Shown: in pieces, positions 1 through 63,247 of the stretch | How positions within the stretch are numbered: position 1 is the first letter of the stretch | Layout of the letters: every line of letters begins with the position of its first letter | NCBI RefSeq assembly: GCF_042453785.1 | Contig: NC_091677.1 | Coordinates: forward strand, 26,537,501 to 26,601,500 | Source of the DNA: Malus domestica | Taxonomy: Eukaryota > Streptophyta > Magnoliopsida > Rosales > Rosaceae | Length of the DNA stretch: 64,000 bases | Direction of reading: 5' to 3' | Translations under genes and position numbers: made by a program | Notes under the pieces: model-generated | Databases searched by the model: none | Told to the model about the DNA's origin: nothing | What the model saw: the letters and a program-made list of their open reading frames with translations, nothing else

Positions 1-1227
1 ATTTGTTTTGTATGAGTTATCTGGGTTGTTCATGAGAAGAAATTTTTAGTTGTGATGGGAACATAAATAATACATTATGTGTTTTTATACAAATAGTGAA
101 AAGTTTTAATTTTTAAGTTATTAACTTTTTAACACACATAACTCATTATATATATATAAAGATACGTAATGTATCATCTCGTGTAACGATTACACTGAAA
201 AATCTCTTCTCGGTGAGTTGATTTACTTTTTACTTTTTATGGGGTGGTGGGAGGTGGAAATGTCAGGTATACGGCGAAAGTCAGAGGCAGAATCCAAAAT
301 ATAAATTTATTTCTCGTGAATTAGGCAGCTACAGACAGAAAGCAAGAGAGAGAAAGGAACCCACTACGAACGTGATGCAGTTGGGTAAGTTTATTTTCTA
401 TTTTCTAATACTCCGCGTTTTCACTTTTTTGGGCTCAAAGTCAATTATACTAGTTTTGGTTCCAACCACAGTAGAATATTTGCTCTTAGATTAGCAATTT
501 TTCTTCAATATTTCGGAAAGTATTTTTGTTCACCGTTAAATGATAGTAATGCTCATTACTTTACTTAAGTGAATATGAAAATGCTCACCTCCTATTATGT
601 AAAGATTTAGGAGTAAAGTTAGTTTTCATTGAAAAAAAAAAAAAAAAAAAAAACCTCAACCCAAGAAGAACTAAAAATATGAATATACCCTAAAAAGAAT
701 TATTTATTCCTAAAAAGCGGTCTGCATCACGGATGTGATTCATTTTAGTTAATCGGCGGTAGAGTAACACAAGTGTTACATTGTTTTTTTTTTTCTCGTG
801 ACAAATTCTTGAGTAGAAATTTATGTGGCAATTGGAGAATAGACAATTGTCAACCTATGTATATGTAAAGAGTTTGACGAAGACTTGAAAATTTGGAGGT
901 CGTAGAAGGAAAGGGGTGGCAAGAATGTGCTATTTACACATCTTATTTTACTTCTCATACATCATTTATTAATTTTTTTTCGTTGATTTTTTTCAATTCA
1001 TCTGATCCGACAGTCAAAAATTAAAAAAACACGTGAAAAGTAAAATATATGTGTAGATATCATATCCCGGATGGCAATTGTGGAAAGCAAATATCGAAGC
1101 AACATGAAGAATAATAAATGAGATAAGCCTCCACTTTTGATGGTCTCACACTCTTTCTTTGCTTTGTGTACGTTTTTGAAACTTCTGCCAAGCTTCCCAT
1201 AAAGTGAAGCACAAGCATAATGCGACT
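1..1227. other. Intergenic, no gene seen
   Basis: AT-rich sequence with short open frames only, none resembling a known protein. There is a run of about 22 A at roughly 631-652, which could be the tail of an old retroposon, but I see no paired target-site duplication. Confidence 0.5.
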
Positions 1228-1411
1228 TTATGATGTTCATAATTAGCAGAAAGACAAATACACTATGTCATAATTAACAACAATGATAATTGTGGTCAAT
1301 TAACGAGCCATTGGACTATTTTATGATGTTCATAATTAGCGGAAAGACAAATACACTTTGTCATAATTAACAACGATAATTGTGGTTAATTAACAAGGAA
1401 TTGGGCTAAGT
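1228..1411. repeat. Two-copy tandem repeat, 93-bp period
   Basis: A unit beginning TTATGATGTTCATAATTAGC occurs at 1228 and again, nearly identical, at 1321. Both contain the stretches AAAGACAAATACACT and GTCATAATTAAC. The second copy lacks a few bases inside. It is a simple local duplication with no coding potential. Confidence 0.85.
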
Positions 1412-1430
1412 AAATAAAAAGTTAATAATG

Positions 1431-1631
1431 TTTTTTTTTTCTTAAAATGAGTACCTGTTAGTGGCTTCATCACGGCGGTCCATCTTTTCGGAGGTCGAAA
1501 AAATTCACAAGGGCATTTCAACCTTCCTTGACAACCATTATGAGATTTACCAGCACTAAAAATTGAACTTAGAACGTACTGTATGGAATACTGGAATTCG
1601 TCCCAACCACTGAGCTATCCCGTAGTGATTG
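1431..1631 (-). mobile_element. tRNA-derived SINE with target-site duplication
   Basis: Read on the minus strand the element starts near 1631 with a tRNA-like head (GGATAGCTCAGTGG, an A-box match), has a weak B-box (AAGTTCAATTT) about 70 bases later and ends in a poly(A) tract, seen as T11 at 1431-1441 on the plus strand. AAAGTTAATAATG at 1418-1430 and AAAGTTAATAACG at 1632-1644 form a 13-bp target-site duplication with one mismatch. Head, tail and duplication together make this a retroposed SINE rather than a functional tRNA gene. Confidence 0.75.
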
Positions 1632-1644
1632 AAAGTTAATAACG

Positions 1645-2898
1645 TTGAGATAAAAGAAGAATAATTTCAACTTAAGTAAGATCGTCTGATTATTCGTAAA
1701 TCATTTGTCATATAAACATGCGATTTTTCTAGTTGTATTCTTGTTACAACTAATCTCATTTGATCATATCTGATATGAGAGTTGATCTAATCGCATTTCC
1801 CTCGTGACCAAGCAAGTGTAGTGTTTTGAATTTGAAATTGTTTTGAAGGTGATAAATGTAACGAAGGGGGCTAGCTGGCATTGAATGATGAATCATGGAG
1901 GTCAGCGAGGCATTGAAACAAGAAACGAGGAGAGACTATGCAGTCTGTCTGATGCCTCAGCCCTCTCTCAGACCCTCAGAAATAGCTTCTTCTTTTTCTT
2001 TTAAATTTTATTTTTTATTAAATTATTGGATTTTGTACCTAAATTTGTTTCTCCTCCTGGTCTCTGAGGTTTCTTGGTTGTTTGCGTGAAGTTTCCCCTT
2101 TGACATTTAGGCAAAAATAATAACGTTTGTTACAGCCTTCTCTATAATTTTCCGTTCTTTCTTTTGACTTCGTTTTGGTGTAACTGACATTAAACAAGTT
2201 CGTGTTATCCTATCGTGATTCAATAGCATATAATTTTGATAAAAATTTTACACATAATAATATATTATTGATCTAAAACGTTACGTGACTGTAAATCTAA
2301 TTCATGTGAGTCATCTGAACGATGATTTCAGTATTCTAGTTTGTTTACTTCACTCTTCTTCCTCCTCTGTACGCGGTTTGTGGATTGCCTTGTTGGGTTG
2401 GTTTTGTCTTGTGTACTTTTTGACGTTTGTAGTTTTCGTGTTTTAGTGGAAGTCTTCCCTGCCAACCTCCTAATTTGCTCAATTTCTACTCCCTCTCCGC
2501 TCTCCCACTTCTAAATTTTCTTTCCTATTTTCTACTTCAATTTCCCCTTCATATGAATGCCAAATTAACAAGCAAGAAAATAGTTGATTGATTGAGAATT
2601 TCAACGACATGGGATCGATAGTTCAGTTTGATATTTATGTTACTGTTACATACATGGAAAGTGGAAAGATAGTTTTCTAGCCAAAAAAACAAATTTGATG
2701 AATGTACCATTGTTGCAACTGTTTGGGCACGGTTTTTACACCTGAGCCAAATATTACAATATATATATATAATTATTATTAGCACTTCAAAAATTTCATT
2801 TTATAGTCTCTACAATTGTATTTTTCTTTCTAATTATAGAAAGTTTGGAGTGCCAAATGAGATTTTTGGAATGCTAATAACAATTTCCTACATATATA
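1645..2898. other. Intergenic, no gene seen
   Basis: AT-rich sequence without a convincing open frame. The 64-codon frame near 1895 has no recognisable domain and runs into low-complexity T-rich sequence. Confidence 0.4.
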
Positions 2899-3385
2899 AT
2901 ATAATATATTTAGAGGCGAGCCTTCGTGTAATGGAAAAGTTGCTTCTTTTCAAAAAAAAGAAAGTTCGAAAGAATTGAATTTTTTTTTAGATTGGATGCG
3001 ATTACTAATTTATGATCTGGTATGTACATAATGAAAACTTCATTCTCGATTCTACGAGAATTATTATAAAAATCTTTCATTTGCTTCTCTTCAATGGCAG
3101 TTTTATTTTCCCATAAGGTGTCCTAATTTTTGGCCTAATTCTTCTTCTGATGATCGATTCAACCTTTTCGGAAAATTTCCAAACGAACAATTTTAACGAA
3201 ATCTTGCAATTTCTTATTTTCCTATGTTCAAATGTATAATATAATATATTTAGAGACAAGCTTTCGTGTAATGAAAAAGTTTTTGCTTTGTGACCGAAAG
3301 GTCACCGGTTCGAATTGTGAAAACAGTTTTTTTGCAAAATAAAGATAAGACTGCATACGATAAACGTTCCTCTTAGTCCCGTAAA
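2899..3385 (+). mobile_element. Au-type SINE (3235-3385) and a partial second copy (2899-3040)
   Basis: The copy at about 3235-3385 reads like the plant Au SINE: A-box region CTTTCGTGTAATG, B-box GGTTCGAATTG at about 3308, then a segment ending in GACTGCATACGATAAACG, where Au elements carry a similar block. A partial copy lies at 2899-3040. Both are preceded by the same AT motif (AATATAATATATTTAGAG), so the duplicated block is larger than the SINE head and may reflect local duplication. The family call is from memory. Confidence 0.6.
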
Positions 3386-4207
3386 CTTGGAAAGCTTGTT
3401 GGCTTGGAGTGTGAACCAGTGAAAAGAGATTTCATTCATTGAAAAAACTGGACAAAAGATTACAAGTGATGATAAAAGGGGAACAAAAAGATGAGAGACT
3501 TTGTCCAGTATCGGAAAGCAACAAAGATATAATCCAAGGGGGCTCATTCTGCTTGGTTGCCAAACCCATTGATGTTATTAATATTTTGTTTAAAGTTAAT
3601 ATAATGGGTTGAAAATTAGGTGTTGGTTTATTATTTAATTTAGAAAACTCATAGCCTAATTATTTAATTTACACTAAAAATGATTTGATTTAACATCATG
3701 TCTCACTGATATTATCTCTAACTTAACCATCTATTACCAGTTGTAAGGTTTTTTACTCGGTATAATAGTATTGTTGAACCTGTCACATACTAACTATATA
3801 TTATTTTGTTATATGTCCAAGGTTATTCTTCAACAAAAAATACACCAAATGTTATTGTTGGTTTTTTGTCAAAAATTACCCACTGTGTCACTCAACACAA
3901 TCTATTGGTAAATTGGCACGATGCGAGAAAGATATAGGGTTGCAACACAAACAAAAGTGTTTAGGGAAAGAGATTTGGAACAAAAACACTTATGTGGACA
4001 TTGGGGCTTAAACTTACCACTAGATTGTGCTGAGTGACACTATCCATCACTCAAAATTTGTCACGTGGTAAGTTTTGAGTATAGTTTTTATCACATAATT
4101 GTATTTAAAGAGGGCTAGAAAAAGATTACATTTTCAGAGTAGGGTTAAATTTGACTGGTGCGTTTGTAAAAGGACTACTAAAGCTATATTCCTTTTCTCT
4201 TTTGGTC
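3386..4207. other. Intergenic, no gene seen
   Basis: AT-rich sequence; I found no coding frame, clear repeat or RNA gene. Confidence 0.4.
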
Positions 4208-4216
4208 TTTATAAAG

Positions 4217-4417
4217 GGAAGATGATCATGTCCGGATCTCTCCTATCAAGGGTCTAGGATCAAGTGATCCGGGACAGTTGAATTTTGATCCAACGGCTAA
4301 TTATTATTATAACTTTTAGAGGGACTTCTTATTTGTAACCGTTGGATCAAATTTCAACGGTCCGAATCACTTAATCCTGGACTTTTGATGGGAGAGAACT
4401 GGACCGGATCCTCTTCC
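4217..4417. mobile_element. Foldback MITE with 9-bp TSD (Mutator-like)
   Basis: A 201-bp element whose two halves pair for about 90 bases: the left end GGAAGATGATCATGTCCGG matches the reverse complement of the right end. It is flanked by a perfect 9-bp duplication, TTTATAAAG, at 4208-4216 and 4418-4426. Long inverted repeats with a 9-bp duplication fit a non-autonomous Mutator-like element. It has no coding capacity. Confidence 0.85.
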
Positions 4418-4559
4418 TTTATAAAGATTTATGCTTCAAATTGATAGCATTTCAGCTTTCTAAGTTCCAGATAACCTTAAAAATTGTGCTTATTCTCTTC
4501 CCTTAAGCATATATGCTACTATTTTCATTAGCTAGGTTCCCTGTTATTTCTTATTAACC

Positions 4560-5226
4560 ACAGACCGAACACTTGTCGAGTCCGTGGCCATTGGTGACTA
4601 TCAACGGTGGAGATTCGACGACGGCTGCTTTAGAGTTTGATACTCCTCAATCACCAGAGAACAATATATCTACATTATCCTTCTGCAAAGTCAAAAGGTC
4701 ACCTATCATATATATATGTCATCTGTTTGGATTCCCAGAAAGCATGGTAGATGATTGCCGGGGGAACAATTTAATCAATTGAACCATGTGTTATGCATGT
4801 AGAGGACAGTATCATTGCAGATGATGAGTGGGTTGAGAACTAATTTAACATTCGTTTGGAATATTTTTTGTGAAAATGTTTTCAGGTTTGAAAAGCACTT
4901 AAAGCGTATTTTAAAAGAAAGAGCAATTATGTGCGCTTAATATAGGCACATAAGTGGTTGCCAAAAGCACTTGGGACTAATGACTGCTTTTTATTCTGAA
5001 ATTTGTATACATACATATCACAGTACTGTATTATACCAAACAAACGAGACCTCCACTTAAGAAAACCATTGACATTATTTCTCTGCAGCCAAACTATGCA
5101 TCAGATGGATTTGAGAAAATCAAATCGCTGAAAGAGACGACTGGGAGGGACATGGAAGAACATATCAATCGACGAACCATGTATTGTCAAGAGCAGATTG
5201 TCAGGGGCAAGATATTCCTGCATTTG
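4560..5226 (+). pseudogene. Possible gene remnant, two exon-like open blocks
   Basis: After an acceptor-like AACCACAG at about 4555-4562 the frame is open for about 70 codons (contains DSTTAALEFDTPQSPEN) to a stop near 4782. A second open block follows TTTCTCTGCAG at about 5090, runs 51 codons (contains FEKIKSLKETTGRDMEEH) and stops at about 5244. The composition looks like plant coding sequence, but I recognise no family, see no start exon, and the two blocks are not joined by obvious splice sites. It could be a decayed 3' end of a gene or chance frames. Confidence 0.25.
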
Positions 5227-5375
5227 GTGCAAACAAAGAATTGATCCTCGAGTTGCGATTTATTTTGCTCCCATATGTCCTATGGAAATCTGCGCAAGGG
5301 AGAACCCATCATCCCAAAGCTAAGCAAGAAAGGAAGACAGAAAACTTTTAAGGTAAAGGAAGTGAGAAGAGTACA

Positions 5376-9006
<3,631 letters not shown>

Positions 9007-36729: not shown

Positions 36730-37065
36730 TACGAAACAAAAACCACCATCTACCCCACTTCTCTCTTTGTGTCTCATTCCCTCTTTACACCACACGCATA
36801 GCCCACCGCATCCTGTGACCTGACACAAGAACCTCTCCAAAATTGGGCCCATATTTTTCAGGCCATCTCACTCGCATTCGCACAGTGTCACCAATGCCGC
36901 GAAGCACCTGATCATCCAAACCAAAGAATAAGATCCAACGGTCCGTAATCTTCTTCCATATCCCATTTCATCTGCTTCAGGTTCCATCGGAAGTCCCAAA
37001 ACTCTCTCTTCCTCTCGCTGTGCTTTGCGTAGTAGCTTCCCTTTCAACTTCGGAGCTGTTCCAAA

Positions 37066-41069
<4,004 letters not shown>

Positions 41070-41657: not shown

Positions 41658-41976
41658 ACAAAATCAAGAGACAAAATCCACCCTCTAACCCACTTACACC
41701 GCGCACCCATAACCCACCACATCGCGTGACCTGAAGGAGGAACTTCTCCAACATTAGGCCCATATTTTTCAGTCCATTTAACTCGCATTCGCACAGTGTC
41801 ACTAATGCCGCGAAGCACCTGATCGTCCCAACCAAGCAACAAGATCCAACGGTCCGTAATCTTTTCCCACATCCCATCTCATCAGCTTCGGCTTCCATCG
41901 GAAGTCCCAAAACTGTCTCCTCCTCTCGCCGTGCTTTGCGTAGTAGCTCCCCTTTGAACTTCGGAGCTGTTCCAAA

Positions 41977-46041
<4,065 letters not shown>

Positions 46042-48270: not shown

Positions 48271-51200
48271 ATGGGGAATGCCTCTTCCATGCTAACTCAG
48301 TACGACATTGAAGAAGTGCAAGAGCACTGCAACTTTTTATGTAAGCTTTTGTTTTGATATTTTATTTGTCTCTCTTTCATTTGTTCCCTTTTGCTATTGT
48401 TTTTATTAAGGCTAAATACTAATACTTGGTTGTCTGATTTTTATGTGAAAATTAGTTTCTCAGCAAGAAATTGTATCCTTGTATCAAAGATTTTGTCAAC
48501 TAGATAGAAATGCAAAGGGTTTTATCTCAGCTGATGAATTCCTATCGGTCCCCGAGTTTGCGATGAATCCTCTCTCTCAGGTAGTCCACTGCTACGAAGA
48601 GCTTAGTTGTTTAATCCACTCCGTCTGTTTAATTGGTAATGCATGGTATGTGTTTCGTAATTTATGGCTCTGCTTTGTTCTTTCCTTAGAGGTTGCTTAA
48701 GATGGTCGATGGGTTGAACTTTAAGGACTTTGTGGCCTTCTTGTCTGCGTTCAGCGCTAGAGCTAGTATGCAGCAAAAAAGTGAACGTAAGTGATTGGTC
48801 GTGCTAAGTTTAATAGTCATAGCAAACTGCTTCTTTTACAGTTGTGATGTTTTTGGTTTATTTTGAGTACAATTGTTCTAAATAGGTTATTGCTTGTCGT
48901 AATGAGTGGGCTAGGGACTACTCGTATTTCTGTTTACATTATTGATGTTATTGACTGTTTCAAATACTCATTTGAATACTTCGTGTGTGTATGTATATAT
49001 ATGTATATACATATATGCATCTGTGCGACATGTTCATATATTTTTCTTGCATTCTTCACAATTAGGAAAAATCTGCACTCTGAGGAACATGTTTATGTGG
49101 TGGATTAACATTGACATTGTCTCTTTTCCAGTTATTTTCAGGGTATACGACTCAGACTGTAATGGAAAGGTGTCTTTCAATGATATTTTAGAAGTGCTGC
49201 GTGATTTGTCGGGTTCATTCCTGTCTGACGAGCAAAGAGAGGTAAAATCATGGTTTTACCCACTTTTGTTTATATAGTCATAGCCTTGCACGACAAGAGT
49301 TAAATGGTTTTGATTGAATCTCACCTATTTGGTGGATATTGAGTATTATTTCAAAACAACACTTGTGACCAAAGAAGCCCTTTTATTTGCTTCTCCCCCC
49401 ATTGGTGCAGTTTGTGCAAAGCTAAGGAGGAGAGTGTAAACCACATTTTTCTCCATTGTTCTTACACGATTCAACTGTGGTGGAAATTGTTTTAGGAGGT
49501 TAGAGTTAGTTGGGTCATTCCAAAGGGTTGTTTCGAGCTTCTAAGCACCAATTTTGAGGCCCTAGGAATTGGGAGGAAAGCTAAAGCTTTGTGGGGTTGT
49601 CTGGTCTCGGCAGTTTTTCGGAACATTTGGTTGGAGCGTAACAAAAGAATTTTTGAGGATTATACTGGTGTGGGGGTAGAAGTACTTTGGGGAAGAGTAA
49701 GATTCTGGGCAGCCCTCTGGTCTTCAGTTTCAAATGATTTTAAAAATTACTCTCTTTCTCAGTTACTGTGGGATATGTTAGCAGCAGTAAAGTGATTTAG
49801 GTTTAGGTTTTGTTGATGTAGCCAGATCCTCTTGAGAGATTTTCCTGTTTTTGTTCTTGGTGGATTTCTTATCCACTTCTGTTTATTTCTCTGTTCTTTT
49901 ATAAAATGTTTGTTTCTTCTAAAAAAAAAATACTCATTTTCCGCAAATATCATCAAGTTTTGTCCTCCGATCAATACCTTAATTTGATGAAGAACCAGAA
50001 AGTACTGATCCTTGATACTGTGGCTACATAGTGATATTTGGTGTCACAGAAAATATCTAGTCTTCTTTCACAATTTCTTTGGCCAAAACTTGTGACAATT
50101 TCAGACTAGTCATTTAAGATAAAATTGGAATATTCGTCATCCATATCTGATCTATGATTAGGTATGCATGTTTAGTTACACGTGGGTCCTAGGTCTTGGT
50201 CTTGCCATCGCCTTTTTTATCGTTGTTTGTTTTCTTGACAGTTCTTGACTAGGATACATTGATAAGTTGTTTTACTTTGTTGAAATGTTGCGTAGTCAGG
50301 GACCAAATTATTAACTTTCCCTGTGCTCTATGTCTTTCACATGCAGAAAGTGTTGACTCAAGTCCTGCAAGAAGCAGGGTATACAAGGGAATCTTATTTG
50401 ACGTCAGATGACTTTGTTAAGGTATTTACATTTTGCTGTCATATTTTTTTGTGTGACAACAATTATCATAGCAAAGGGGGTAGACAATGTGTACGCTTGC
50501 TGGCTTATATCTTTCTTAGAACTTTCTTAGGCCTTTAATGATGCGAAACTTGATATGGCTGTTATTTATATAATTTTTTTCTCATTTCAAAAAATGAGAA
50601 GGACATATGATTCCTTTCTAAACAGAGAGAAATTCAGAAAACTTATCCAACTAAAAATCTTACAGCAGCTGATTTTATGTCCAAACATATTTGATAATTG
50701 AGGCTTATCTACATTAAGTTTACCTTACCTTTGCTATTTTAGAGGTCTATATGGAGCCTTTTATTTTTTTTTATTTTTTATTTTTTTTGAGAAGAAACAA
50801 TTTTATTAAAGAATAGTGAAATACACAGAAGTGGATAAGAAGTCCACCAACAAATTAGAAAGGAAAATCCCAATAGGATTTGGCTACAGCAGCCAATTCT
50901 AGACCTAGCTCACTTAACTACTACTAACAAATCCCACAGTATTTGAGATAGAGAGCAATTATTAAACTCTTTAGTAACTGAAGCCCAAAAAGATGCCCAA
51001 TATTTTACTCTCCCCCAAAGTACTTCTGCCCCCACTCCAGTATAGTCTTCAAAAATCCTTTTGTTGCGTTCCAGCCATATATTCCAAAAAATTGTCGATA
51101 CCAGGCAACCCCACAAAGCTTTGGATTTTTTCCCTTTTCCAAGTGCCTTAAAATTGGTGCTTAGTAGCTCAAAACACCCTTTAGGAATGACCCAACTTAC

Positions 51201-52847
51201 TTTAACCTCCTGAAACAGTTTCCACCACAGTTGGATCGAGTAGGAGCAATGAAGAAAGATGTGATTTACACTCTCCTCCTTAGCTTTGCATAAACTACAC
51301 CAATGTGGGGATAAACACATCAGAGGGTTTCTCCTTTGAATTTTGTCGAAAGTGTTGAGACTCCCAGTGGCCACAAGCCATACAAGTATTTTAACCTTCG
51401 GAGGAGCTTTTGATTTCCAAATCTGAGAGTAGGGTGGATAATAGTGCACAATCCCATTGTTGCTCAGTAATGAAAGATAGGATTTGCATGTGAACAAACC
51501 TGAAGCTTCTAGGTTCCACAGGTTCCACCTTTTGTTATCCATTGTTGCTCAGTAATGAAAGATAGGATAAGCTGGCCGCCTCTTCTATCTCCATCTCATT
51601 CAGATTTCTCCTAAAATCAAAGTTCCAGCTCAAGGAACTTGACGAAACTTCCACAAAGCTGGAGATGTTATGATTATCCTTCCTCGATAATAGGAATAAT
51701 CTGGGGAATTGCTCCTTCAGCGGTCCCCCTGCTAACCACCCATCCTCCCAAAACCTTCTATATGGAGCCTAAGCCAAACAACAGAAGTCAAAGTTAAACG
51801 TTTACAGATCTTGAATTGTTTGAACACCATTTAAAATGTTTCAGCATTGCATTCCTTTTAGTCTAATAACAAAAGTTGCTCTACTTAGAAAGAACAAAGG
51901 AAAGAGAAGCATACATCATTTATCCGTTATCTTAACACCCAATGACGCATACAATAGGTAGTACCCTGTGTGTCTCCATAGCTGGTAGTTTGTGCTAAAA
52001 AATCAAGTGCAGTTATTTGTGTTTTGCTTTGCTTCATGAAGTTATAGTCTCAAGGAAGTATAAAAAACTGTTGCATTAGATACACTCGGAAAGTAGGTGA
52101 CTAGCTAAGTAACTGAGGTTGTAACTTATATCAGAAATTCATATTTGGTGTACCGAACTTGTTACAGAAGCTTACATTATAAAGTTGAACATAGTGTTCA
52201 GTCTTCACGTAGCTGTGAGATGCTAAGCCGGGCTATGGTATATTGCCAATTCTCACTAATTAATGAATAATTAAAGTGCTCATATAGGTGTTCCCAGCAT
52301 TACAGCATGTAAATTTCTTCTTCTTTAGAAATTTATCTTTTGAGTAAAATTTTAATCCCAACCCAGAAGCTAGAAAAAGGAGTCATTCATTAGAATGGTG
52401 TGGAAATGCCGTCATAGAGGAGGAAGTTTAGCCAAATGCACGAGTGTGCTTTATCTTTCAAGGCGAATTTGAACTTTTGGTTTTAGATTCTGGGGTCGAG
52501 CATTTGGTTTCACAACTTCCCAGTTAAAATAAAAACCATGAAATAATCATCTGATTACCTGCCTCTACACAGAAAAAACAAACTTGCAGGTTTATAAAAG
52601 TTTGCATTTGTTTATTATACTGTTTCATTGTCCCATATTAGCCCAATTTCAAATTCCAGATGGCTTCTGAGACATTGAATATGAATAACGTGATCAATAA
52701 CTTTTACATCTGCAATACCTATCCGTGATTTTATTAACTTTTGAAAATTTCGTCAGGCGTTTAACATGTTTCATTACGGCTTTGTATCTGATGCAGGTTC
52801 TTGGTAGTTATGGTCTGAAAATGGAGGTTGAAGTGCCAATCGACTAA
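48271..52847 (+). CDS. Calcineurin-B-like EF-hand protein (At3g18430 type)
   Basis: A small calcium-binding protein related to calcineurin B; plants keep it without a classical calcineurin A partner, so its role is not settled. The six exons are 48271-48340, 48456-48580, 48690-48786, 49132-49241, 50347-50421 and 52797-52847, giving 528 bp and 175 residues. MGNASSM is a likely N-myristoylation site. EF-hand 1 (DRNAKGFISADEF) is degenerate with lysine at loop position 5; EF-hand 3 (DSDCNGKVSFNDI) keeps D, D and N at loop positions 1, 3 and 5. The end is LKMEVEVPID. A leader intron probably exists upstream (donor TTCTGGTAATG near 47980). Introns 4 and 5 (1.1 and 2.4 kb) each hold a LINE 3' end in opposite orientation. 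The family identification is from memory of the sequence. Confidence 0.9.
49375..49929 (+). mobile_element. 5'-truncated LINE in intron 4
   Basis: Contains the zinc-binding end of a plant LINE reverse-transcriptase ORF: HWCSLCKAKEESVNHIFLHC, then WLERNKRIFEDYTGVGVEVLW and a stop after DMLAAVK at about 49795, followed by a 3' untranslated region and an A10 tail near 49920. One in-frame stop (TAG near 49494) breaks the ORF. Only the last roughly 550 bases remain, typical of aborted reverse transcription. A target duplication was not found. Confidence 0.85.
50760..51756 (-). mobile_element. 5'-truncated LINE in intron 5, opposite strand
   Basis: Same family as the intron 4 copy but on the minus strand, with a clear target duplication: TCTATATGGAGCCT at 50746-50759 and 51757-51770. 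The poly(A) end appears as T-rich sequence at about 50760-50790. A 210-codon frame (51542-50910) reads to DLLVVVK, including WKSKAPPKVKILVWLVATGS and the HWCSLCKAKEESVNHIFLHC zinc motif. Part of the sequence (ATTGTTGCTCAGTAATGAAA) is repeated 85 bases apart at 51456 and 51541, interrupting the ORF's left side. Confidence 0.92.
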
Positions 52848-55424: not shown

Positions 55425-57702
<2,278 letters not shown>

Positions 57703-58900: not shown

Positions 58901-59229
58901 GTACTCATCACTCAATCCCTAATTATATTATTATTTTCTCTAATTTTGACTTATAGTTTGCTGATAATCTCCTCCAATTAGCTTATAATGAATTTAATTT
59001 CTTGCCGGAGCTCATTATTCATTCCCAAATGATTTTTTCTGTGATTTTGAATTTGACTTGCGTGAATTATATATACCATGAAGCTCAAAAATTGATACAA
59101 TTGATTGAACTATGAGGATTCTTTTTCTCTGGGTCGTTATCAATGATTTTATGAATACTTGTGTTAATTTGTAGTCGTCCATTAACAAGTCTTTGTGAAT
59201 TTTCTTGCGTCTACCTCTACATTTAGGTT

Positions 59230-60440
59230 TTGATTATGTTGATACACAAAATCGGAGGGTCTTGAAACAATGTAAATCCGACCGTGAATCTGCAAGAAAG
59301 TAAAGAACACAAGATGTATCGTGTTTCGTTCCAATGTTTGGGCTACGTCCACACTGATGTTGATATTGTTTCACTCTGAATTGTGAATATACAAGAAGGC
59401 TAGAGACAGTGCGCTCTTTAGCCTATTTTCTGTGTTTGCCCTCTCTGAGATATTTCTCTCTTCCTATGGCCTAAACCTTGACATCCCCTAATGAGGAGAG
59501 TGATGAGTCATTTTATAGAATAATGGTTTCTCACTTATTACATATTTGCCCCTTCATTTATTACATAATTACATATGAGGTCCTCCGAGTATTTATACAA
59601 GATCTAAATACGGAGGCTCTAAATATGGTACAAACAGTAGTCCCCCAAATCTTCAGTTAAGATAGTCTTTTGGCTGGAGACTTGAAATTCAGTTCATGTG
59701 TGAGCCGAAGTAACTAGATGTCGTCTAGAACTGATACTCGATATGAGGCGGTGCTCAATTTGAAATGATGCTCAACTAGAAGTAGCACATGTTGCGAGGC
59801 TGCTCGGCTTGTGGCTTATGTTGCATTGGTTGGCTCGACTTGTAGCGTTGAAGGTGAGGGGGTTCCTTTTATAGAATACAAGCTCGCTCCTCAATACATA
59901 AATGATGGGCTAGAGTTGATGCTCCGGCAAGACGGTTGCTCAGCAGGTTCTAATGATGGTGAGGGAGTCTCTTTTATAGAATAAGGGCTTGCTCCTCAAT
60001 ACATAAGTGATGGGTTAAAAGTGATGCTCGCGACGAGGTGGTTGCTTAGCTGGCGGCGATGCTCTCTAATGAAGGTGAGGGAGTCCCTTTTATAGAATAA
60101 TGGTTCGCTCCTCAATACATAAGTGATGAATTAAGAGTCTCTCTCTAATGAAGGTGAGGGAGTCCCTTTTATAAAATAAGGGTTCGCTCCTCAATACATA
60201 AATAGTGGGTGCTCTCTAATGAAAGTGAAGGAGTCTATTTTATAGAATAAAAGTTTGCTCCTCAGTACATAAATAATGGGCTAAGTCCCCCAAGTATTTT
60301 TCACGAGGCCCAGTTGCGGAAACCCAATATACGGTACATAGTATAGTCCCCCAAGTCTTCAGTCAATAGAGCATGTTGGCTGGATACTTCAAATTCAATC
60401 CATGTATGGGCCGAAGTGGCGGTTATTCGGAGGCGGTTTT
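59230..60440 (+). mobile_element. Unclassified repetitive element with internal direct repeats
   Basis: A block with GTGAGGGAGTCCCTTTTATA, a CGCTCCTCAATACATAA motif and an AATGATGGGCTA-type end recurs at about 59853, 59958, 60074, 60153 and 60224. A related CATTTTATAGAATAATGG stretch lies at 59509. The motif AGTCCCCCAAGTCTTCAGTC recurs (about 59641 as TCCCCCAAATCTTCAGTT and 60352). This looks like a long terminal repeat or non-autonomous retroelement, with no coding region found. Confidence 0.5.
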
Positions 60441-60449
60441 TGTATACCA

Positions 60450-60645
60450 TGCACTGAAGCTTTGTAGGTGAAGTTTTATAGGTGAGACTTTGAAAGTGAA
60501 GTTTTGAAACTGAAACCTTTGTAAATGAAGCTTTGAAGTAGGAGTTTTGTAAATGAAGTGTTTGAAGCTGTAGCTTTTATAAATGAAGCTTTCGAAGCTG
60601 GAGCTCTGTAAAAGAAGCTTTTGAAGCTGATTGACATGAGTGATA
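60450..60645 (+). repeat. Minisatellite, GAAGCTTT / TTTGTAAATGAAG motif
   Basis: Variants of TTTTGTAAATGAAGCTTTGA repeat at irregular spacing of roughly 20 to 40 bases. The open minus-strand frame across it is a by-product of the repeats. Confidence 0.7.
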
Positions 60646-60654
60646 CTCATGAAT

Positions 60655-61663
60655 GTTTATGTTGATTGACATGAATGATGTTCATGGATGTTGACATGAG
60701 TGATGCTCATGAATGTTTATGTATGATTGACATGAGTGATGCTTATGTATGATGGTGATTGTCATGAGTGATGCTCATGTATGATTTTTTGGAGGACGAG
60801 TTGTACTTTTGATCACCTGGTTGGTGATAATAACGGCAGGCTGCTGAATAATTTTGGAGTACTAGACGTACTTTTGATCACCTAGTTGGTGATAATATCG
60901 ACAGGTTGCTGAATAATTTTGGAGTACTGGACGTACTTTTGATCACATAATTGGTGATAATAGCAGCAGGTTGCCGAATAATTTTGGAGTATTGGACGTA
61001 CTTTTGATCACCTGGTTGGTGATAATAGAGGGTGAACCTTAAGTGGAGGGATGGAGGTTGGAGTTTGAAGCCATAAGGCCTGACTCTTTTTGGACATATG
61101 GGCCTTCGCCCTCCACATAACATTCCAGCCCACTATTTTGGGCTTGCCGACATTTTGCCTTTTTTTTTTTGGCATGCTGCCTTCTTTACACATCAGCATA
61201 ACTATATAATAATTATTCCAGTTTGCAGAAGACAACTTAATAAAATATTCATCAATGACAGTAGGTATGTGCTGTAAAGATAAAAGTCTTATCTTTGTGG
61301 TTGTTTTCCATGAGTGCGAATGGATGATTGAGTGTGGCAAACTTGATAGTGGTGGACTATGGCCTCCCCCATAACAAACCTCATCATTTTCTCCATTATG
61401 CTTGGTTTTCAAATATCTTTACAGCAAGGGTCGGGTTGGGATGATCATGGCGAAGACTGCGCTCTTCTTTTTATCTTCTTCCCTTTTTTCTACTTTTGCT
61501 TTTGTTTCCCACTCCATTTCCTTCAACTTTCAAAACTGCAGGGGCGGTGACACGACGACGACGTGGTGTCGTCGTCCCCGTATGATGCTCTGTATCCTCC
61601 CTTCACATCCAAATAGGGATCTGCCATATTGATCTTCGGGTGTGCGATCATTGTTGACCCTAG
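60655..61663 (+). repeat. Left arm of a 2.5-kb inverted repeat
   Basis: About 1.0 kb that recurs in reverse complement at 62065-63130. In order it holds a CATGAGTGATGCTCATG minisatellite, a 64-65 bp tandem array (TTTTGATCACCTGGTTGGTG, four units, 60790-61030), a block with GAAGGCAGCATGCC on the opposite strand, and an open stretch beginning ATGGCGAAGACTGCGC at about 61448. The arm ends with GGTGTGCGATCATTGTTGAC, exactly where the NCED fragment begins. Arms differ by small indels and substitutions. Confidence 0.93.
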
Positions 61664-62064
61664 CTAGCTGTCGAAATCGCAACGACCGACCGTTTCGAGG
61701 TCTTTGGATTTAGTGACCCGGACCTGGTACCACAAATCGTTTTCCGACATGGCTAAGAGGCGGCCGTTGTGGTAGACCAGGCCGGCGTTTGCGATGCCTG
61801 TGCCCTCGTTTTTATCGAGGAGCCTAAAGCCCCACGTGCGAAAAATAAGAGAAGGCAAGCGATGCCGGAGTGGCCGTGGAGCTCGCCGATGGCTTTGGGG
61901 AAAACTTGTTGCCCCATTTCCCTTTCTTGGACAAGCCTCTGAGTCTCGGTGAACCGGCAGGCGTAGCTAGCAGAACCGGAATCAATGCTGGCAACATGAA
62001 CCATGTCGTCGCCGTCGAAAAGGTGGTGCCCATCCACAGGCTTGTGTAATGGGTTGGCGCCATG
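61664..62064 (-). pseudogene. Captured fragment of a 9-cis-epoxycarotenoid dioxygenase (NCED) gene
   Basis: NCEDs cleave 9-cis-epoxycarotenoids to xanthoxin, the committed step of abscisic acid synthesis. On the minus strand one frame reads [19 protein letters not shown], then [20 protein letters not shown] and [20 protein letters not shown], matching NCED blocks (usually [20 protein letters not shown] and [17 protein letters not shown]). After FARGALG the frame shifts and continues [20 protein letters not shown] to VGRCDFDS. About 130 codons are covered, without the start, the later iron-ligand histidines or the C-terminus. It is bounded on both sides by the inverted-repeat arms. A frameshift and changed residues show it is not a functional enzyme. 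Confidence 0.9.
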
Positions 62065-63130
62065 GGGTCAACAATGATCGCACACCCGAAGGTCGTACGG
62101 AGTAGCAATATGGCAGATCCCTGTTTGGACGTGAATGGAGGATACAGAGCAGCATACGAGGACGACGACACCACGTCGTCGTCGTGTCACCGCCCCTGCA
62201 GTTTTGAAAGTTGCAGGAAATGAAGTGGGAAACAAAAGCAAAAGCAGAAAGCAAAAGTAGAAAAAAGGGAAGAAGATAAAAAGAAGGGCGCAGTCTTCGC
62301 CATGATCATCTCGACCCGACCATTGTTGTAAAGATATTTAAGAACCAAGCATAATGGAGAAAATGATGAGGTTTGTTATGGGGGAGGCCATAATCCACCA
62401 CTATCAAGTCTGCCACACTCAATCATCAATTCGCACTCATGAAAAACAACCACAAAGATAAGACTCTTATTTTTACAGCCCATACCCACTGTTATTGATG
62501 AATATTTTATTAAGTTGTCTTCTGCAAATTGGAACAATTATTATATAGTTATACTGATGTGTAAAGAAGGCAGCATGCCAAAAAAAAGGGCAAAATGTCG
62601 GCAAGCCGAAAATAGTGGGTTGAAATGTTATGTGGAGGGCGAATGCCCATATGCCCAAAAAGAGCTAGGCCCTATGGCTTCAAACTCCAACCTTAATCCC
62701 TCCGCTTAAGGTTCACCCTCTATTATCACCAACCAGGTGATCAAAAGTACGTATCAAAAGTACGTCCAATACTCCAAAATTATTCAGCAGTCTGCCGCTA
62801 TTATCACCAACTAGGTGATCAAAAGTATGTCTAGTATTCCAAAATTATTCAGCAGCTTGCCGTTATTATCACCAACTAGGTGATCAAAAGTACAGCCCGT
62901 CCTCCAAAAAAGCATACATGAGCATCACTCATAACAATCATACATAAACATTTATGAGCATGACTCATGTCAATCATAACATAAACATTTATGAGCATCA
63001 CTCATGACAATCACCATCATACATGAGCATCACTCATGTCAATCATACATAAACATTTATGAGTATCACTCATGTCAATCATAACATAAACATTTATAAG
63101 CATCACTCATGTCAATCATACATAAACATA
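62065..63130 (-). repeat. Right arm of the inverted repeat
   Basis: Reverse complement of 60655-61663 with small differences: the 64-65 bp unit array has three copies here (62710-62900) against four on the left, while the CATGAGTGATGCTCATG minisatellite is longer (62920-63125). The similarity stops at AACATATTTGGGG near 63130. Confidence 0.93.
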
Positions 63131-63247
63131 TTTGGGGCTACAATGGCGGGCTGAAGATTTGAGCATTTCTGATGTTACAATTTGAAAGAAAGATGCTTAT
63201 ACTTCCGTGTATGGGAGCATTTCTGGTGGGATCATGGAAGAAAAAAT

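Follow-up and report, generated by a model that had tools for sequence, protein, structure and literature searches.

Near the right end of the window (the whole stretch of 64,000 nucleotides that was analysed) two long arms in opposite orientation flank a fragment of a 9-cis-epoxycarotenoid dioxygenase (NCED) gene, whose product serves in synthesis of the stress hormone abscisic acid. The features of this locus and of the retrotransposon sequence that continues to its left are listed in Table 1. An initial sequence-only reading had proposed arms of about 1 kb, and these were recovered at 60628–61660 and 62065–63129, sharing 382 inverted 15-mers. When placements of the same geometry were stepped across the window (n = 247), more than 21 inverted 15-mers were found in four of them, all four overlapping the inverted repeat itself. 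The inverted repeat in the window is real.

Alignment of 60628–61660 with 62065–63081 gave 1071 columns, with 86% identity when gaps were counted and an ungapped identity of approximately 93–94% in the aligned part; the tandem array of the right arm extends past 63081 to 63129. The K2P distance between the arms was 0.070 over 979 ungapped sites and 0.065 over the 631 sites of the non-tandem inner part. Divergence was 5–6% in the part made up of NCED and the adjoining 85 bp and 5–9% further out to 61028, and was higher only in the tandem arrays. The arms are also separated by indels of 52 bp (in the 65-bp array), 13 bp and 12 bp, and by several of 1–4 bp. An earlier worry that they were the product of misassembly was not supported, since arms that differ at 6–7% of sites and by three indels of this size are hardly likely to be an assembly duplicate.

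Table 1. Features of the insertion, with positions in the window.
Feature	Position	Strand	Remarks
3' LTR of retrotransposon, 400 bp, TG..CA	59237..59636	-	U5 end toward left flank; outer 5 bp GATTA
Polypurine-like tract TTTGGGGGACTAC (minus strand, adjoins LTR) and internal region with tandem arrays	59637..60627	-	Outside the inverted repeat
Left arm, family part: LTR-retrotransposon internal region, tandem units of roughly 35 bp and 65 bp	60628..61545	-	
85-bp stretch, in both arms only	61546..61630	-	Both of the two genome-search candidates were the two arms, with no source beyond them at E up to 10
Captured NCED fragment, 431 bp	61631..62061	-	Same sense as retrotransposon; codons 161 to ~304 of contig-10 gene
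Left strand of 27-nt perfect NCED stem	61634..61660	-	61638–61660 identical to contig-10 NCED gene
Right arm: inverted copy of left arm including NCED edge 62063–62095	62063..63129	+	Terminates within 35-bp tandem array
Right strand of 27-nt perfect NCED stem	62065..62091	+	62063–62087 identical to contig-10 gene; 62071–62093 to contig-5 gene

The captured piece, originally put at roughly 400 bp, proved to be 431 bp long. In two minus-strand frames the loop matched the Pfam family RPE65 (E = 1.2e-12 and 6.3e-8), and its best match among solved structures was 3npe_A, 9-cis-epoxycarotenoid dioxygenase 1 (E = 6.4e-30 and 3.5e-17 for the two frames). The donor, which the sequence-only reading had left to be sought in the source genome, was searched for with 61631–62063 as the query, and all six first-look candidates were scored. 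The search returned four NCED-like loci: C10:37338958-37339389 at 93%, C5:40401640 at 90%, and C5:32961791 and C10:31218894 at 74% each. Apart from these, only the window itself and, weakly, 69 bp on contig 16 were matched, so that no second genomic copy of the fragment was found among the six candidates. Two of the four loci, C10:37338958 and C5:40401640, were examined for intactness and proved to be intact genes with uninterrupted frames, encoding 603 and 607 aa, respectively.

When set against the contig-10 gene, the fragment shows a frameshift due to the loss of 1 nt, one in-frame stop and, across 402 gene bases, 29 substitutions, distributed 8/9/12 over the three codon positions. Its K2P distance to the donor is 0.075. 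A functional NCED gene would have an intact open frame over the carotenoid-oxygenase fold, and no such frame was found in these 431 bp. Judged by these changes, the NCED piece is a decaying fragment and not a gene, and its decay is without codon-position bias. With the gene as reference, C to T and G to A account for 22 of the 29 changes; the parts of the locus may therefore have evolved at different rates, and we give no absolute date.

The fragment is not confined to the space between the arms. Its ends had been said to coincide with the arm ends; instead, its last 30 bp (61631–61660) lie inside the left arm, and the gene edge is repeated in inverted orientation at 62063–62095, where 32 of 33 bases are as in the gene. 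By eye, the gene resemblance continues to approximately 62105, opposite a 12-bp gap in the left arm. Immediately after the fragment comes one extra base, 62062. The two copies of the edge form a perfect stem of 27 nt, pairing 61634–61660 with 62065–62091, and in the stem region there is uninterrupted identity with the contig-10 gene over 23 nt (left) and 25 nt (right), and with the contig-5 gene over 21 and 23 nt. The initial placement of NCED in the loop, not in the arms, therefore holds for most of the fragment, but not for the ≈30 bp found in each arm. Since both arms carry the NCED edge, the element had acquired NCED by the time the arm was doubled or in the course of that doubling, and the captured piece thus marks the order of events.

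With the entire repeat as query, a genome search yielded 115 matches from the best 40 of 2649 candidates; within the left arm, 61464–61545 was partly common to many places in the genome. The unit had been taken to start at 60655. In pairwise comparisons with 19 fetched loci, however, homology to other copies of the family continued outward from the left arm to about 59237, the end of an LTR, while right-arm homology stopped at 63118–63129. The LTR is a 400-bp TGTT..AACA unit. When it was used as the query (59237–59636), 37 of the 40 scored matches (the best 40 of 3296 candidates, with the window itself as one of these 40) covered exactly positions 1–400. Pairs of LTRs in direct orientation were found, for example, at C11:8589865/8592791 and C13:6460265/6463507, and a second LTR end in direct orientation was present within the fetched stretch at 14 of the 19 arm loci.

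Following the U5 end CATCAACA, a PBS-like motif TTTGGCGCC with 0–1 change was found on the minus strand at 15 of 15 loci, which had been chosen for having that U5 end. A PPT-like GGGGGACTAC adjoins the LTR of the window. Fifteen rows with a recognised start were surveyed for target site duplications (TSDs). LTR-like ends with a 5-bp TSD at both ends were found in L008 (GAACT), L022 (TAGTA) and L025 (AAAAT), and L009 was treated separately. Matches in L010, L020 and L027 occurred only at ends that are not LTR-like, and eight rows had no TSD, the far end probably lying outside the fetched stretch for many of them. L008, L022 and L025 are 3217, 3326 and 4558 bp long, respectively, with LTRs of 380–402 bp and LTR–LTR K2P distances of 0.083, 0.026 and 0.064. 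The arm family thus has the direct TG..CA LTRs, the TSD of 4–6 bp, and the PBS and PPT by which LTR retrotransposons are recognised. On these signatures, the arms derive from the interior of an abundant LTR retrotransposon, which here lies on the minus strand with its 3' LTR at the left. Variation in the internal regions is modular: in L010 and L011 the match to the arm is interrupted at ~560 and is picked up again some 560 bp later, and across this interruption the loci align with each other at 90%.

A Pfam scan of the 22 ORFs of at least 90 aa in L008, L022 and L025 found no gag or pol domain in any of them, and 20 of the 22 were without any family at 0.01. One ORF in a tandem-repeat stretch of L008 matched KIX_2 over 38 residues (29.1 bits against a cut-off of 25.6) and Pentapeptide_4 below that family's own cut-off, and one L025 ORF matched DcaP below the cut-off. 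The gag/pol coding capacity expected of an autonomous element was not found in these copies, and the arm family looks non-autonomous. TRIM elements are usually smaller than 3.2–4.6 kb and LARD elements usually larger; the arm family, as represented by its three complete copies, differs from both in falling between these sizes. It resembles them in having LTRs, a PBS-like site, a PPT and no detected gag/pol domain, TRIM and LARD being non-autonomous classes of LTR element according to the available part of PMC5659011. The same part describes families with TGTT/AACA, that is, atypical, LTR ends, which need not include the arm family. As to whether the locus represents a transposon family carrying NCED or a one-off rearrangement, the arms are part of a large family of LTR retrotransposons, but the NCED insert itself seems to be single.

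In contrast to the complete copies, with two LTRs, PBS and TSD, the insertion in the window has a single LTR. No PBS motif, second LTR or remainder of the internal region was found rightward to 67900 (the window and L065), and the bases outside the LTR, GATTA (59232–59236), had no TSD partner at the right end. TSDs had been looked for outside 60655 and 63130, the ends given by the sequence-only reading, and a scan with k = 5 and 7–11 at those coordinates found none that was convincing, matches occurring only with poor terminal inverted ends or inside tandem arrays. The 103 bp to the right of the arm (63130–63232) were found only here, with three candidates scored. A genome search with the left flank revealed no clean empty site. 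The match on contig 9 also matches 56454–56605 of the window in inverted orientation and was not used.

One of the 19 other arm loci (L009, contig 2, C2:29606000-29612800, positions 286–5660) was itself palindromic within the fetched stretch. Its arms pair 288–726 with 5660–5217 and 1267–2331 with 5289–4205, and the interval between the arms contains a PBS-like site together with a complete LTR (~3801–4198). This middle LTR is followed by 9 bp of PPT-side sequence and then directly by the inverted copy. U5-type ends are present at both outer termini, with ACTGT on both sides if the right terminus is taken 3 nt short. The outer LTRs are 91% alike and match the middle LTR over 140 and 58 bp only, making L009 a composite of two LTR variants, which lowered our confidence in the reading preferred below slightly. 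L009 suggests that cDNA of palindromic form is able to integrate, although it is one example and its terminus is imperfect.

On balance, we consider it probable that the locus is a rearranged and partly truncated insertion of a non-autonomous LTR retrotransposon on the minus strand, which would have arisen through a template switch to NCED mRNA and a turn-back of the cDNA. Reverse transcriptase would have copied the element RNA inward from the 3' LTR (59636–59237) through the internal region and the 85 bp, and would then have switched to NCED mRNA, copying about 430 nt. Inside the NCED copy the cDNA would have turned round, either by self-priming or by a jump to a sister cDNA, so that the NCED edge, the 85 bp and the internal region were re-copied in reverse to yield a hairpin-shaped molecule. 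This molecule would then have been integrated, with a right end that stops at 63129, before any LTR. Capture at the level of RNA, the turn-back step and integration in one piece are what we infer from this arrangement. The orientation of NCED in the sense of the element is expected if reverse transcriptase switched between RNAs, and the divergence of 5–6% and 5–9% along the arms is as a single duplication would give. At the turn-back junction there is only the extra base at 62062 and no clear microhomology. With no right LTR and no partner for GATTA, integration in one piece is not demonstrated, and since the donor NCED genes have uninterrupted frames, capture from RNA and capture from DNA would be indistinguishable. 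On this reading, a single locus records two errors that an LTR retrotransposon probably made in copying, the capture of a host gene piece and an inverted turn-back.

In a five-way comparison over 357 comparable columns, the arms shared one derived site and had 10 and 13 private sites, and each arm was nearer to L008 (0.047 and 0.058) than to the other arm (0.067). The arms could derive from two co-packaged family RNAs instead of one molecule. The low sharing is roughly what would be expected if the palindrome arose during a star-like burst of the family, but two co-packaged RNAs would give the same picture. In a tree of 22 family rows and 245 columns the two arms were not joined; the arms and most copies were left unresolved in it, and it was set aside as support.

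The missing right side would also fit a rearrangement at the DNA level, in which an ordinary element contained or lay beside NCED and a break of the chromosome was repaired by fold-back or template-switching synthesis, giving the inverted arm after integration. We regard this as the less likely course of events, though one to be taken seriously: the right end breaks off in the middle of a tandem array without an integration signature, and another complex palindrome begins 103 bp beyond it, so that the site may favour such events. The sense of NCED, which is that of the retrotransposon, argues against repair, as does the divergence of the arms, which is about that between family copies; L009, which has an LTR end at either side and a probable TSD, speaks for an event that preceded integration. 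An inverted copy might otherwise have been produced by self-integration, or by antisense nested insertion of one family copy around a copy bearing NCED. Autointegration of Ty1 is reportedly a precedent. Antisense self-nesting of an LTR element is known for EVD of Arabidopsis (PMC11624286, in the part available), but LTR ends would be expected at the junctions of the inverted part, and none occurs at 61631, 62062 or 63129. The NCED edge common to both arms would moreover need a copy of the same junction, and we consider this origin improbable.

In its outline the locus is reminiscent of a DNA transposon with long terminal inverted repeats, of the MULE, Pack-MULE or Foldback type, that had captured NCED between its ends. 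Pack-MULE and Foldback elements carry a gene fragment between inverted repeats, and their anatomy, with ~1-kb arms and internal tandem repeats, resembles what is found here. The window repeat, however, lacks terminal inverted repeat ends and has no 8–11-bp TSD with matching inverted ends. Homology extends ~1.4 kb past the end of the left arm to the LTR and does so on the left only, and an inverted partner was present within the fetched stretch at just one of the 19 other arm loci. A transposon of this type is extremely improbable; it was rejected because the arms are the internal region of an LTR element and the TSD is absent.

The present function of the insertion is most likely none, the sequence having the appearance of a decaying insertion. 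We consider it quite improbable that the locus is a functional hairpin, whose transcript would be diced and silence the retrotransposon family in trans, and perhaps NCED via the 27-bp stem. The arms do match a large family, exact 21-mers common with the right arm cover 583 of 1033 left-arm bases, and the stem region contains the runs identical to the contig-10 and contig-5 genes described above. On the other hand, the arms have drifted 6–7% apart, the NCED piece is without codon constraint, and the sole LTR points left, away from the palindrome. This LTR would drive transcription leftward; for RNA to be made across the hairpin, promoter activity would be required either rightward of 63130 or in the interval separating the LTR from the arm. 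It is highly improbable, in particular, that the locus acts as a natural killer locus, in which siRNAs from the ~1 kb of paired arms would silence the family in trans and the 27-bp stem would seed siRNAs of 21–23 nt matching two intact NCED genes; if true, abscisic-acid synthesis would thereby be linked to the silencing of transposons.

Hairpins formed by nested or inverted TE insertions have been proposed as silencing triggers (available part of PMC11624286). The same source cites Mu killer, an inverted duplication of the maize Mutator transposon which, like the present repeat, could be read into a hairpin RNA; unlike Mu killer, which silences its family, the window palindrome is known from sequence alone. 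If palindromic integrants such as those in the window and at L009 recur in the family, they would be a direct source of hairpin-forming loci that can be counted genome-wide. Gene pieces captured by LTR elements are exemplified by maize Bs1 (PMC13317346, in the part available), an LTR element with host coding fragments as here; Bs1, however, has pieces of three genes, whereas here one NCED fragment was seen once, in a palindrome with one LTR left. Complex insertions of Angela, Squiq and Opie have been attributed to abnormal template switching (Sabot and Schulman 2007, PMC1950507). They have been explained, as is proposed here, as products of a single event by template switching, and they have outer TSDs; L009 resembles this class. 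As described in the available part of that paper, however, they have three LTRs and two complete cores with no inverted copy, in contrast to the inverted second copy with a gene fragment at its turning point found here. No report of NCED captured by a retrotransposon, or of an inverted gene-carrying capture, was found in the literature searched, most subscription papers being outside its coverage.

Several other observations were made around the insertion. Running past the end of the window, 63233–66226 (L065 position + 62900) forms a second, less diverged palindrome that starts 103 bp to the right of the arm. Its order is A, B, inverted A (97%), inverted B (98.8%), that is, a circularly permuted inverted repeat of ~3 kb. 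To the left, a DEAD-box helicase gene (55428–57702) lies on the minus strand like the LTR, which is ~1.5 kb away and points toward it; from this arrangement, the LTR (59237–59636) could serve as an outside promoter for the gene. The segment just left of the LTR, 59074–59225, resembles in inverted orientation 56454–56605 in the helicase gene region (79%), and the contig-9 place at 77%. Further away, almost identical open frames (..DPTVRNL.P.PISSAS.SIGSPKT..) occur at 36932–37303 and 41735–42208; this is a local duplication, for which Pfam gave no match at 0.001. Finally, 50913–51548 on the minus strand encodes a zf-RVT, a reverse-transcriptase-associated zinc-binding domain, and is probably the remnant of a non-LTR retrotransposon.
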